In this document: positions 1,234-27,613 of the stretch, one piece after another | Layout of the letters: each line of letters opens with the position of its first letter | How positions within the stretch are numbered: position 1 is the first letter of the stretch | Source of the DNA: a virus | DNA: 36,769 nucleotides | Strand: one strand, 5' to 3' | Virus record (IMG/VR): IMGVR_UViG_3300009151_000180 | Coordinates: 1 to 36,769 of that record | Notes under the pieces: model-generated | What the model was told of the DNA's origin: nothing | The model's database searches: none | What the model saw: only the letters and a program-made list of their open reading frames with translations | Program-made: the position numbers and the translations under genes

Positions 1234-1696
1234 AAAACCTATAGAGCTTCATTTAATTAATGGCACAACTCCCGAACATGATGCCATTGTATTGCCTGAA
1301 TCTTTAAGGCAAAGAATACCTGCCGCAGAATGGATGGACAATCCTTCCGCATGGAATAAAGCACTTTTTGTTATAGAAACTTCTGATTATCTTTTTGATG
1401 TTTATGGAATAGGATCAGCTCAAGACAAGCATACTTTAACCATGCTTGCAGATCAAATTGACCTTTATATCCAATGTGGAATAGGTATAGAAAAAAATGG
1501 GATTGTTACTGTATTTAATGACGGCAAAACAATTGGACCTAATCCTTTTATAACTATTAGAAACAATACTCTTAAACTAATCATTCAATTAATGAATGAA
1601 TTGGGTTTAACGCCTAGAAGCAGATTAGGTAAAGTTGGATCGTTGCCAGCATCTACCATTAATTCTTTAATGCTAGGACCACAAGTTAAGAGATGA
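1226..1696 (+). CDS. terS: Terminase small subunit, P27-like
   Basis: Likely the DNA-recognition subunit of the packaging motor, binding phage DNA and handing it to the large subunit. The 156-residue length, the central run of repeated helices (about 50-90) and the C-terminal LGLTPRSRLGKVG segment are typical of the P27 small-terminase family, where this last motif recurs near the end. The start is GTG at 1226, with AGCGGAG about 9 bases upstream, inside the end of the methyltransferase gene. It overlaps the large subunit gene by ATGA, so the two are probably translationally coupled. The call rests on the motif and on position directly before a clear large subunit. Confidence 0.82.
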   Translation: MNRKPIELHLINGTTPEHDAIVLPESLRQRIPAAEWMDNPSAWNKALFVIETSDYLFDVYGIGSAQDKHTLTMLADQIDLYIQCGIGIEKNGIVTVFNDGKTIGPNPFITIRNNTLKLIIQLMNELGLTPRSRLGKVGSLPASTINSLMLGPQVKR

Positions 1697-3351
1697 ATTA
1701 TTTAACGGGTGTTCAATATGCTCAAGATGTAGTTAAGGGCAATATTGAAGTTTGCAATAATATAAAATTAGCATGTCAGCGTTTTCTAAATTTTATGGAA
1801 GACAAGCATTGGGAATATGAGTTCTTTCCTGAATATGTCGAGCATGTATTAAATTTTGTAGCAATTCTTGTTCACACCAAAGGTCCTGATGCTGGTAAAC
1901 AAATTGTATTAGAGCCTTTTCAAATTTTTCTTATTTGTGGCATATATGGATTTCGCCATAAAAAAGATCATACAAAAAGAATGACCACCGATGTCATTGT
2001 TTTTATTCCTCGCAAAGCTGGCAAATCAACTCTTACTGCAATTATAGGTTTATATGAATTAGCATTTAACGAAGCTGGAGCGGAAGTGTTTACCCTTGCT
2101 ACTAATCGAGAACAGGCATCTATTGTATTTGATGCGGCTCGTTCAATGATTGAAAATATGCCAGCAGAAATTAAAGCATGGTATCGAGTAAGCAAATATG
2201 AAATTGGTAAAGCTAATGACAGTCAAACTATGTTCCGCGCTTTATCCCGCGACAATAAAAAGTCAGGCGATGGTAAGAATGCTAGTTGCGCTATTATAGA
2301 TGAAGCCGCACAGATTATAGACCGCAATAGTATTGAAGTTATATTTTCAGGCATGGTTGCCCGAAAAAATCCATTAAGAATTTATATAACAACTGCAAGT
2401 TTTACTAAAGACACAAAGTTTTTTGAAGACTTAACTGCATTTGAAACAATGTTAAATGGTGATGCGCCTGACAATCCTCATTGGTTTGGTTTGTTATATG
2501 GACTTGATCCACAAGATAATTGGAAAGATGAATCAACTTGGGCTAAAGCTAACCCAATGCACGGCATATCTGTTTATCAAGAAGCCATTAAAGAGCGATG
2601 CGAACAAGCTAAATTTAAGCCAGCGGCTCTTAATGAATTTCTTTGCAAAACTCTTAATGTTTATGTATCCGCTAACACTGCCTGGATTGATCGCGACTAT
2701 TGGGATAAATCTACAGGCGAAGATAAACCTGAACCTGAAGAAGTATTTATTGGCTTTGACTTGGCGGCAACTCGCGACTTAAATGCAGTTTGCACCTTAA
2801 AGCGATATGCTTCCGAGGATTATTATGCTGAATTCAAATTCTTTTTGCCTGAAGAAGCGTTATCCTTGATTCCAAGTCATTATCGTGGTATATTTGACCA
2901 AGCCGTTCAATCTGAAATATTGCATATCACAGAAGGCAATGTTATGGATGATCGCGAGATTTCTGAATATATAAAACAACAAGCTACTTTATACAATGTT
3001 AAAGAAGTAGGTTATGACGCTTACAATGCGGCTTCTTTAGTTGCTCGACTACATGATAATAGCATTCCTGTAAAAAAGGTTGGACAGGGCATGGCTGTTT
3101 TAAATAACCCATCCAAGCATGTTGAAAAACTTATTATGCAAAATGCTATTAAACACAATGGCAATCCATTTGTAGGTTGGCAATTAAGTAATTGTGAAGT
3201 TTATACCGATGTTAATGGCAATATTAAGATTCGCAAGAATGAAGCAGATAAGTCAGCAAAAGTAGATGGTATAATAGCGCTCATCATTGCGATGCACTGC
3301 TCATTAGATCATCCATTAGTTTCTACATCTTTTGGATTTAGAAGCATATAA
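1693..3351 (+). CDS. terL: Terminase large subunit (Terminase_1 family)
   Basis: ATP-driven motor and nuclease that packages DNA into the prohead. The ATPase part has a Walker A variant PRKAGKST (106-113) and Walker B CAIIDEA (199-205), followed by an ITTAS coupling-type motif at about 232-236. The C-terminal nuclease part shows GFDLAATRDL (354-363, first catalytic Asp at 356), a second acidic YDAYN segment near 445 and KVDGIIAL close to the end, which fits the RuvC-like metal-binding set. The 552-residue length is normal. The ATG overlaps the terS stop as ATGA. The portal gene follows after 9 bases with an AAAGGAA site. Confidence 0.96.
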   Translation: MNYLTGVQYAQDVVKGNIEVCNNIKLACQRFLNFMEDKHWEYEFFPEYVEHVLNFVAILVHTKGPDAGKQIVLEPFQIFLICGIYGFRHKKDHTKRMTTDVIVFIPRKAGKSTLTAIIGLYELAFNEAGAEVFTLATNREQASIVFDAARSMIENMPAEIKAWYRVSKYEIGKANDSQTMFRALSRDNKKSGDGKNASCAIIDEAAQIIDRNSIEVIFSGMVARKNPLRIYITTASFTKDTKFFEDLTAFETMLNGDAPDNPHWFGLLYGLDPQDNWKDESTWAKANPMHGISVYQEAIKERCEQAKFKPAALNEFLCKTLNVYVSANTAWIDRDYWDKSTGEDKPEPEEVFIGFDLAATRDLNAVCTLKRYASEDYYAEFKFFLPEEALSLIPSHYRGIFDQAVQSEILHITEGNVMDDREISEYIKQQATLYNVKEVGYDAYNAASLVARLHDNSIPVKKVGQGMAVLNNPSKHVEKLIMQNAIKHNGNPFVGWQLSNCEVYTDVNGNIKIRKNEADKSAKVDGIIALIIAMHCSLDHPLVSTSFGFRSI

Positions 3352-25343: not shown

Positions 25344-25372
25344 AAAAAAGGGACTTTTTGAGTCCCTTAATT
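25344..25372. terminator. Bidirectional terminator between converging operons
   Basis: GGGACT (25350-25355), loop TTTTG, AGTCCC (25361-25366), extended outward by A-T pairs. The A run at 25344-25349 gives a T run on the minus strand, so it is a strong terminator for the leftward block (pqqA side); TTAATTATT on the plus strand is a weaker tail for the rightward late operon. It lies where the two transcription directions converge. Confidence 0.85.
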
Positions 25373-25423
25373 ATTGGTAAATACCGATTTTCTGAAGAAC
25401 GCTATTCACCTTATTTAAAGCTA

Positions 25424-25495
25424 CTACTTATTCATAACATACATAGTAACTTCAAATCCAAATCTCATTTCTGTAGCTGCTGGAGTTGTCCACAT
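25424..25495 (-). CDS. pqqA: PqqA, precursor peptide of the cofactor PQQ
   Basis: A 23-residue peptide opening MWTTPA and with the core GFEVTMY at 13-19. PqqA peptides are about 22-29 residues, often start MW-x-x-PA and keep a Glu and a Tyr three residues apart (E-x-x-x-Y), here E15 and Y19; PqqE links these side chains and the linked pair becomes pyrroloquinoline quinone. The ATG is at 25495 (minus strand) with AAAGGA 8 bases upstream, a promoter-like pair at 25533-25561 and the terminator at 25344-25372, so it looks like a one-gene unit. No pqqB, C, D, E or F is present here, so host enzymes must act on it. PQQ serves methanol dehydrogenases, which suggests a methylotrophic host and a metabolic helper role during infection. 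The peptide is too short for most gene finders. Confidence 0.9.
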   Translation of the reverse strand: MWTTPAATEMRFGFEVTMYVMNK

Positions 25496-25532
25496 GATAT
25501 ATATCCTTTGTTATCCAAGCAATTTGCCTGTA

Positions 25533-25561
25533 AATATAAGATTATCTGTTTATGCAGACAA
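25533..25561 (-). promoter_or_regulatory. Promoter-like sequence for pqqA
   Basis: On the minus strand, TTGTCT (25561-25556) and TATATT (25538-25533) are separated by 17 bases, a good sigma-70 arrangement (4 and 5 of 6 consensus matches). A start about 7 bases after the -10 box would give a leader of some 30 bases before the pqqA ATG. It lies in the gap behind the SSB-like gene, so pqqA could be transcribed independently of the recombination operon. Confidence 0.6.
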
Positions 25562-25578: not shown

Positions 25579-25815
25579 TTAAAATGGCATGGTTGAATCA
25601 GATGCGGTTGTATTTGATCCCGCGCCATCTTTAGCTTGAGGTTCGCGCATTGTTACCCAGCCATCAAAATTAACAGGAATTGATTCAATAAGAATTGAAG
25701 TGCCGCCTTGTTTATTAGACATTGCAACGCCTACCTTTGTCCATCGAGCTTTTGTTTCGCCCTCTTTGTTTACATACTCGCCTGTTTTAGCGATTAGATC
25801 ATGAGTTATAGCCAT
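25579..25815 (-). CDS. SSB-like single-strand DNA-binding protein candidate (78 aa)
   Basis: Short protein (78 aa) starting MAITHDLIAKTGEYVNKEG, then ARWTKVGVAMSNKQGGTSILIE (24-45, two strands of a small barrel) and SIPVNFDGWVTMREPQ. It ends with a Ser/Thr/Asp tail closing in DSTMPF, reminiscent of the acidic D-D-D-I-P-F tip by which bacterial SSB binds partner proteins. Its neighbours are YqaJ exonuclease and ERF annealing protein, so a single-strand binding role in recombination is plausible. The start overlaps the exonuclease stop (TAATG). Confidence 0.6.
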   Translation of the reverse strand: MAITHDLIAKTGEYVNKEGETKARWTKVGVAMSNKQGGTSILIESIPVNFDGWVTMREPQAKDGAGSNTTASDSTMPF

Positions 25816-26474
25816 TATTTAATTTCCTTTAAGTTATTTACAGTAGTTTCTATTTCCTGTAAGAATAAGGTCACCTTATCTTCCATCATTTTAATATACT
25901 CATCATCACGATAAATACGCTTTACAAATCCTTGTAGATGATCCGGCATTTCAGGATCGTAGGATACAAGGTCGCAAAATTCTCTTTTGTCATTTCCATT
26001 AGAACCAGGAACACAAGCCAATTGCCACATACATTGATCATAATACTGCTCTAATTGCTTACCTTCAGTTAAAATATTATCCAAATGATTTTCAGGGTTA
26101 GGTATCTTAATTTCAATTAAAGAATTAGTAGCATCAACAAGTCCATCAGGTGAACATTGACCGCCTTTAATAGTAGGGTGTAAAACAATTGCTACTTGAT
26201 CTACAAAGGTATTATATTTAACTTCATACCATGCCCTAGCCATAGGTTCTAAATCAATTCCTCGTTGCATTGCGGGGGTTTTATAGGTATCTAATTTCTT
26301 GCCTGTCAATCTTTCCCTAATAAGTTCATTCTTATACTTTTTTTTAGTTAAAGATTCATTGCCTGATCTACCTTCAGTTAAAAGATCAGCTATTCTTGAA
26401 CCGCCAATGCACCCAATTCTTAAAGCCATCCATTCGGGGCTACCTTGCTCTATACCTTTTATTATTCTATTCAT
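25815..26474 (-). CDS. YqaJ-family recombination exonuclease
   Basis: Lambda-exonuclease-like enzyme (219 aa) that resects double-strand ends to give single strands for the ERF annealing protein. Motifs in order: GSPEWMALRIGCIGGSRIADLL (11-32), MQRGIDLEPMARAWYE (69-84), CSPDGLV (107-113, metal-binding D110), LIEIKIPNPENHL (119-131, catalytic E121 and K123) and QYYDQCMWQLA (143-153). Length is typical. It overlaps the SSB-like gene by one base and the upstream nuclease-like gene by 8 bases, so the module is one operon transcribed leftward. Confidence 0.92.
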   Translation of the reverse strand: MNRIIKGIEQGSPEWMALRIGCIGGSRIADLLTEGRSGNESLTKKKYKNELIRERLTGKKLDTYKTPAMQRGIDLEPMARAWYEVKYNTFVDQVAIVLHPTIKGGQCSPDGLVDATNSLIEIKIPNPENHLDNILTEGKQLEQYYDQCMWQLACVPGSNGNDKREFCDLVSYDPEMPDHLQGFVKRIYRDDEYIKMMEDKVTLFLQEIETTVNNLKEIK

Positions 26475-26904: not shown

Positions 26905-27074
26905 AATTTAGGGCTTTCAATCTTGCCATATAAAGGTGCTAGAATATACTTATCGCCAAGCTCTCTTTTAATAGCCTCAATTCTTGTTTTACGGGCTTCT
27001 AAAGCCATCAATTCTTTCGCGGAATAGGGTAGCGTCACTCCGTAAAAATTACTGTTTCTTGATCCGTAAATCAT
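26901..27074 (-). CDS. Small protein in recombination operon (57 aa)
   Basis: A 57-residue frame that fills the gap between ERF and the nuclease-like gene, joined to both by ATGA overlaps, which is strong support for a real gene. It starts MIYGSRNSNFYGVTLPY and has a basic helix ELMALEARKTRIEAIKREL (21-39). No known family. It may be a small partner of the annealing protein or nuclease. Confidence 0.68.
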   Translation of the reverse strand: MIYGSRNSNFYGVTLPYSAKELMALEARKTRIEAIKRELGDKYILAPLYGKIESPKL

Positions 27075-27613
27075 AGTTCGCCCTTTCTTTTATCTTTGGC
27101 TTCAATAACCATTTTAGATAGGGTGCGATCATTCTTAACTTCGCCCATGACAAAATTGTAATTTGCCTGGAGTTCTTCTAAAGTTTGTGATTGATTAATT
27201 TTTTGAAGATAATCTGCCGCATTAAGAGCTGCGGATTGACCATCATCATCATCGGCATAAAGAGCGCAAAGGCTGGATATAGAATATCTGCGGATATAAC
27301 TAATTGCAGAACCTAATCCTTGCGGGTCTTGTTTTTGAATAGGACAGACGGCAGTATCCTCAATCCATTCACCGGAGCTATGGAGTAACCTAGTTGTTAG
27401 ATGGAGTTTATTGTCGTCTGATGGGCTTAAAGATTGAAGAATAGCAATGCCATTATCATTAAGTGGTTTCTTAACCGCTTCAATCACTGAATTAATATTT
27501 GCGTATTTGGATTTAAAATGCGGATTAGTAGAATCTTTAGCGGCAAATCTAATTTCTTTTTGCGCGGCTACTAAAGCTTCAGCTATCTGTTTGATGCTGT
27601 CGGATGTTTTCAT
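27071..27613 (-). CDS. erf: ERF-family single-strand annealing protein
   Basis: Recombinase (180 aa) that pairs single strands produced by the exonuclease. It has the ERF signature NPHFKSKYANINSVIEAVKK (30-49), GIAILQS, and the second block DPQGLGSAISYIRRYSISSL (96-115), followed by a run of acidic residues DDDDGQ. The C-terminus is a polar, charged helix. AAGGACAAG lies directly before the ATG. The gene precedes the 57-residue gene by an ATGA overlap and follows an unknown gene after 26 bases. Strong family match by motif. Confidence 0.95.
   Translation of the reverse strand: MKTSDSIKQIAEALVAAQKEIRFAAKDSTNPHFKSKYANINSVIEAVKKPLNDNGIAILQSLSPSDDNKLHLTTRLLHSSGEWIEDTAVCPIQKQDPQGLGSAISYIRRYSISSLCALYADDDDGQSAALNAADYLQKINQSQTLEELQANYNFVMGEVKNDRTLSKMVIEAKDKRKGEL

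Follow-up and report, generated by a model that had tools for sequence, protein, structure and literature searches.

Precursor peptide of pyrroloquinoline quinone encoded by at least five groups of methylotroph viruses suggests that host methanol oxidation is kept running during infection

In the biosynthesis of pyrroloquinoline quinone (PQQ), PqqE acting with PqqD cross-links a glutamate and a tyrosine of the precursor peptide PqqA, after which PqqF/G, PqqB and PqqC finish the cofactor. Cyanophage psbA is an auxiliary metabolic gene (AMG) that replaces a consumed component of host energy metabolism. The phage-encoded pqqA described here would be comparable by analogy, in that the phage provides a used-up part and a host energy pathway is kept going; the part, however, is a cofactor precursor peptide and not an enzyme or photosystem protein. 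The bacterial family concerned, the Methylophilaceae, has published counts of 3-12 copies of pqqA and a single pqqBCDEFG set (PMC4109929), and in an OM43 isolate xoxF was the most abundant transcript (PMC5120137).

Closest among described viruses is the T4-like Methylophilaceae virus population VP_266 from Lake Baikal, reported in 2020 with PqqA and a methanol dehydrogenase, which were read as support for PQQ and methanol oxidation (PMC7678222); a 2026 reservoir study additionally lists viral pqqA, pqqD and pqqE (PMC13188868). VP_266 shares with the present case a Methylophilaceae phage background and PqqA, but it is T4-like and has a methanol dehydrogenase, whereas here PqqA occurs alone in a 37-kb phage of the P19250A type. 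A preliminary description of this DNA had called such a gene an unusual AMG; given the 2020 report (PMC7678222), it is not unprecedented. The spread over five phage lineages and the absence of the gene from isolate descriptions went unremarked in that study, and the published descriptions of Melnitz, MEP401/402, MEP301 and Venkman make no mention of pqqA. Within the literature searched, the five-lineage breadth, the substrate-only pattern and the confinement of the gene to phages of methylotrophs thus appear to be new.

The window, that is, the whole stretch of DNA analysed, is a 36.8-kb virus record (IMGVR_UViG_3300009151_000180) with phage genes along its entire length, and its pqqA is located within a bona fide virus genome. 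The terminase large subunit gene (TerL; 1693..3351, plus strand) places the window beside P19250A, a phage isolated on the LD28-clade Methylophilaceae strain IMCC19250, with 84.6% identity between the two TerL DNA sequences and 45 of 61 compared window proteins common to the isolate. Judged by this relative, the window's own host is probably a methylotroph of fresh water, a methylotroph host having been proposed in the preliminary description; the exact peptide also occurs as operonic PqqA at 17 Methylophilaceae loci.

The gene itself (25424..25495, minus strand) comprises 23 codons, ATG to TAG, and encodes MWTTPAATEMRFGFEVTMYVMNK, with MWTTPA at residues 1-6 and GFEVTMY at residues 13-19, including E15 and Y19, which we take to be the Glu/Tyr pair that PqqE joins in the E-x3-Y arrangement of established PQQ biochemistry. 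An AAAGGA ribosome-binding site, read from the sequence, lies 8 nt ahead of the ATG (25504..25509, minus strand). The reading frame, its ribosome site, the two motifs and the E15/Y19 pair are all as first described, and the assignment to PqqA made there is upheld by profile searches: the peptide scores 40.3 bits against Pfam PF08042 (E=3e-10; gathering score 21.1) and 38.8 bits against NCBIfam TIGR02107 (cut-off 20), thereby passing both curated thresholds with the E-x3-Y spacing in place. At the level of sequence, the window pqqA is therefore confirmed to encode a true PqqA, the ribosomally made precursor of PQQ. PHROGs holds no family matching the window PqqA, and no other PQQ gene was found alongside it.

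The neighbourhood of the gene is that of a phage recombination module. On the minus strand, an Erf-like ssDNA annealing protein (27071..27613; PHROG 2324, E=4.2e-53), a YqaJ/RecE-like recombination exonuclease (25815..26474; PHROG 149, E=1.4e-39) and a small SSB-like gene ending in ...MPF (25579..25815), which lies 83 nt upstream of pqqA, form a leftward transcription unit of which pqqA is the final gene; the presence of the Erf-like protein and the exonuclease on one strand suggests a unit of the replication/recombination stage. The unit is closed by a predicted intrinsic terminator, AAGGGACTCAAAAAGTCCCTT followed by a T run (25348..25368, minus strand), with two terminator-like sites found against 0.2 expected. 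Upstream of pqqA, a weak sigma-70-like site, TTGTCT-17-TATATT (25533..25561, minus strand), is no better than chance (one found against 2.3 expected in shuffles). P19250A and two closely related records of IMG/VR have the order SSB, pqqA, terminator as well; among them the spacers are barely alignable and the PqqA peptide is fully or nearly conserved. Between the window and P19250A, 7 of the 72 pqqA bases differ, all silently.

Immediately 3' of pqqA lies a hairpin, GGTGAATA...TATTTACC (in full GGTGAATAGCGTTCTTCAGAAAATCGGTATTTACC; 25373..25410, minus strand), which is letter-identical in P19250A and in the contigs labelled L511 and L189. This element of ~35-41 nt is kept 3' of pqqA within the window lineage, and the hairpin and terminator region together give a fold z of -5.7; the hairpin has no Rfam match, is absent from 187 Methylophilaceae genomes and was not found 3' of pqqA in the other isolate lineages examined. 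The P19250A-like contig L189 (CAIYXB010000030.1), which has its own pqqA and 37 proteins resembling those of isolate phages, was rejected as evidence of host-to-phage transfer, being a phage contig misbinned into a bacterial metagenome-assembled genome (MAG).

Beyond the window lineage, a tblastn search of 50,697 phage records with the window peptide matched nine named Methylophilales phages (P19250A, MEP301, Venkman, MEP401, MEP402 and four Melnitz) and ctXG6705, a host-less environmental podophage genome from a spring, giving ten phage genomes in all; the two remaining matches belong to a bacterial contaminant that was filed as an Acinetobacter phage. MEP431-434 and Venkman EXVC038S were not among the matches and may not be in the collection. 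Klebsiella-, Methylobacterium- and Pseudomonas-type PqqA queries retrieved all or some of these records and no others, so that four PqqA queries against this collection returned only methylotroph phages, ctXG6705 and the mis-filed bacterial assembly. The latter, 'Acinetobacter phage MD-2021a' (L008, CAKLQF020000010.1), was rejected as a source of viral PqqA; it is a bacterial chromosome with a full pqqABCDE cluster, ppk and fur.

The named isolates resemble the window in all having pqqA, and differ from it in their peptides (73-100% identical to that of the window), in the position and orientation of the gene and in that PqqA is unannotated; none of the ten matched phage genomes has a PqqA annotation at the gene. 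Antisense 'hypothetical proteins' are annotated across pqqA in Melnitz (L007/L259, 76100-76195, minus strand) and in ctXG6705 (L002, 2067-2195, minus strand), where the annotation consequently gives the wrong strand. The expectation that so short a gene may be widely overlooked is thus borne out in isolated methylotroph phages, in which pqqA is either unannotated or hidden beneath such calls.

In IMG/VR, the pattern FGFE[VI]TMY occurred in at least 119 contigs, and all 119 listed contigs have an in-frame ATG 11-13 codons upstream of the motif with no intervening stop. In viruses, 15 distinct DNA sequences translate into exactly the window peptide; in hosts, 57 do. Intact reading frames in the listed contigs, 15 viral DNA versions of one peptide and silent-only differences from P19250A argue that the window pqqA is more than a chance occurrence. 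Contigs were assigned to lineages by comparison with isolate genomes, excluding antisense ORFs over pqqA, after single-linkage clustering of neighbourhoods had been dropped as too loose for lineage counts; of the 119 listed contigs, 83 have at least two other proteins in common with one of five isolate lineages (P19250A, Venkman/ctXG6705, MEP301, MEP401 and Melnitz). These lineages have few proteins in common with one another, and pqqA occupies differing places in them: 3' of the recombination genes in P19250A, antisense and adjoining the recombination genes in Venkman, MEP301 and ctXG6705, at the opening of a leftward module behind a consensus-like TTGACT...TATAAT promoter in MEP401, and adjoining a tRNA-Leu gene in Melnitz. 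The gene was therefore probably gained several times independently. In MEP401 (L257, 41896-42500), this promoter sits in a non-coding control region of ~1 kb, and in L517, a relative without pqqA, the next gene stands straight behind a similar promoter. Large viral contigs unlike the isolates, with PqqA of the ...DMRFGFEITMYIANR type, were also observed (L035, 356 kb; L052, 166 kb; L060, 148 kb; L011; L106), and their hosts may be other PQQ-making bacteria.

Selection on the peptide is evident in the viral genes. Across 102 distinct viral genes, dN/dS, computed without the codons of the search motif, is 0.18, and W2, P5, R11 and N22 are invariant, indicating protein-level selection on PqqA; translation itself is predicted, all 120 distinct viral pqqA genes having an RBS-like motif upstream where shuffled sequences gave 12.9. 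As the search motif fixes E and Y, the invariance of E15 and Y19 rests on two separate pattern scans of viral contigs, which covered most though not all substitutions, in copies otherwise well conserved, and returned no copy with either residue replaced. A conserved sigma-70 promoter before viral pqqA was not detected above shuffles (33 against 37.4).

On the host side of the pathway, the window peptide is letter-identical to PqqA at 75 host loci in bacterial genomes, 17 of which lie 140-330 nt upstream of pqqB, and pqqB/C/E adjoin the identical peptide in host loci; the phage peptide is thus the same sequence as peptides encoded with pqqBCDE. This identity to operonic host PqqA makes the peptide presumably a native PqqE/PqqD substrate there, so that substrate competence is nearly built in. 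With the chromosomal genes the window pqqA has in common the identical 23 residues and the E15...Y19 spacing, and stand-alone copies are common in hosts as well (PMC4109929); unlike them, it sits among phage recombination genes, has a spacer and terminator of its own and uses different synonymous codons. Host copies are mostly orphans, 114 of 133 not adjoining pqqB. Among 150 Methylophilaceae genomes, 149 carry pqqA, at a median of 4 copies (range 1-12) and with more than one copy in 141; genomes of ~1.4 Mb or less mostly have 1-3 tabulated copies, and it is there that a multiplying phage genome would be expected to shift dosage most. PqqE exceeded its cut-off in 140 of the 150 genomes and in none of 50 pqqA-bearing viral records, in agreement with the earlier proposal of a host that has the enzymes and a phage that supplies substrate alone; the rest of the pathway is accordingly found in the host. 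A PQQ-dependent alcohol dehydrogenase was over cut-off in 1 of the 50 viral records. That record (L049, IMGVR_UViG_3300025120_009955, 72 kb) is Melnitz-like and T4-type, with pqqA and the dehydrogenase ~6 kb apart, a pairing that resembles the published Baikal VP_266.

The distribution of pqqA is that of an accessory gene. Among terminase relatives in the window lineage, represented by contigs of at least 32.9 kb that may be incomplete, 3 of 8 have pqqA, and in two relatives without it the site beside SSB holds other short genes or spacer instead. A 42.8-kb record with a TerL 95% identical to that of MEP401 is without pqqA, on a contig that may be incomplete. Such a distribution implies that pqqA is not required for this phage type, at least not in every host. 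Among 29 Melnitz-type relatives, 0 showed the gene, in records that are mostly too short to reach from terminase to pqqA.

Taken from genome comparison, the most probable reading is that these phages feed PqqA, a stoichiometrically consumed substrate, to host PQQ enzymes, and we consider it likely. During infection, phage pqqA would be translated off the leftward recombination-module transcript; the peptide would be bound by host PqqD and PqqE, which would join E15 to Y19 before host PqqF/G, PqqB and PqqC complete PQQ, as in the established pathway. The replicating phage genome would act as an added pqqA template while host transcription fails, and PQQ would be kept flowing to the very abundant XoxF methanol dehydrogenase, sustaining the supply of energy and carbon. 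Since one PqqA is used per PQQ while the enzymes turn over, extra gene dosage would pay for the substrate, a logic that matches the host's own excess of several pqqA genes over generally one pqqBCDE set. Arguing for substrate supply are the curated identity of the peptide, its identity with that of hosts, the low dN/dS, the retained E15 and Y19, the recurrence of the gene, its methylotroph specificity and the PqqE-free viruses, together with multiple pqqA genes against a single enzyme set and xoxF as top transcript on the host side. Against it stand the accessory nature of the gene, the chance-level promoter in the window and hosts that already possess 1-12 copies.

Other explanations account for parts of this evidence. 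The 23 codons fall below usual gene-calling cut-offs, one 'Acinetobacter phage' PqqA record proved to be bacterial DNA and one pqqA-bearing MAG contig proved to be phage, all of which could suggest that the ORF arose by chance or that cellular DNA has contaminated the viral collections; such an artefact is refuted here by complete isolated-phage genomes that have pqqA, by family E-values near 1e-10 and by a window that is phage-like over its full length. A genuine gene might nevertheless be passive cargo, either a functionless host fragment or a mobile pqqA that passes between phages and hosts with no gain for the phage, as its accessory distribution, its varied positions and orientations, the small cost of so tiny a gene and the prevalence of orphan copies in hosts would allow. 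This is improbable in view of selection and host association: the peptide is conserved amid unalignable spacers under constraint on its amino acids, RBS-like motifs are universal among the distinct viral genes, and the gene is strictly tied to phages of PQQ-dependent methylotrophs.

Phages shut down host pathways, and a peptide that resembles the substrate might in principle tie up PqqD if strongly expressed, such that phage PqqA might titrate PqqD/PqqE or compete with the host peptide, lowering PQQ synthesis and redirecting carbon. In a decoy of this kind, however, loss of the cross-linking pair or of the core that forms the product would be expected, whereas no viral copy with changed E15 or Y19 was found in the two pattern scans, and the window peptide, being the same as operonic PqqA of hosts, ought to yield PQQ; with the reactive residues retained, we regard inhibition as very unlikely. 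An equally slight probability attaches to an action of pqqA by another route, such as signalling, an effect on translation or a structured RNA element on the 3' side, in which case the PQQ pathway would be incidental. The conserved hairpin of the window lineage is in keeping with the last of these, but it does not recur behind pqqA in the other isolate lineages examined, and selection acts on the amino acids while synonymous change is free.

In a wider sense, the presence of pqqA in at least five groups of methylotroph viruses suggests that host methanol oxidation is kept running in infection. We lean slightly towards the more general view that phages attacking PQQ-dependent methylotrophs acquired, repeatedly and independently, only the consumable RiPP substrate, that PQQ supply is a general takeover target in methylotrophs and that PqqA dosage is rate-limiting in infection. 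Cultured phage-host pairs (Venkman, Melnitz, MEP301, MEP401 and P19250A) make the function of a viral RiPP precursor directly testable; the medium published for OM43 has PQQ added to it. If substrate supply is the true explanation, a cofactor precursor of 23 residues, missed by standard gene calling, would be common in viruses that infect the abundant methanol oxidisers of seas and fresh waters (OM43, Methylopumilus), and AMG surveys that rely on called genes would fail to see genes this short. It would then pay phages to buffer the supply of PQQ, and the flow of methanol carbon through infected cells would be partly under viral control.
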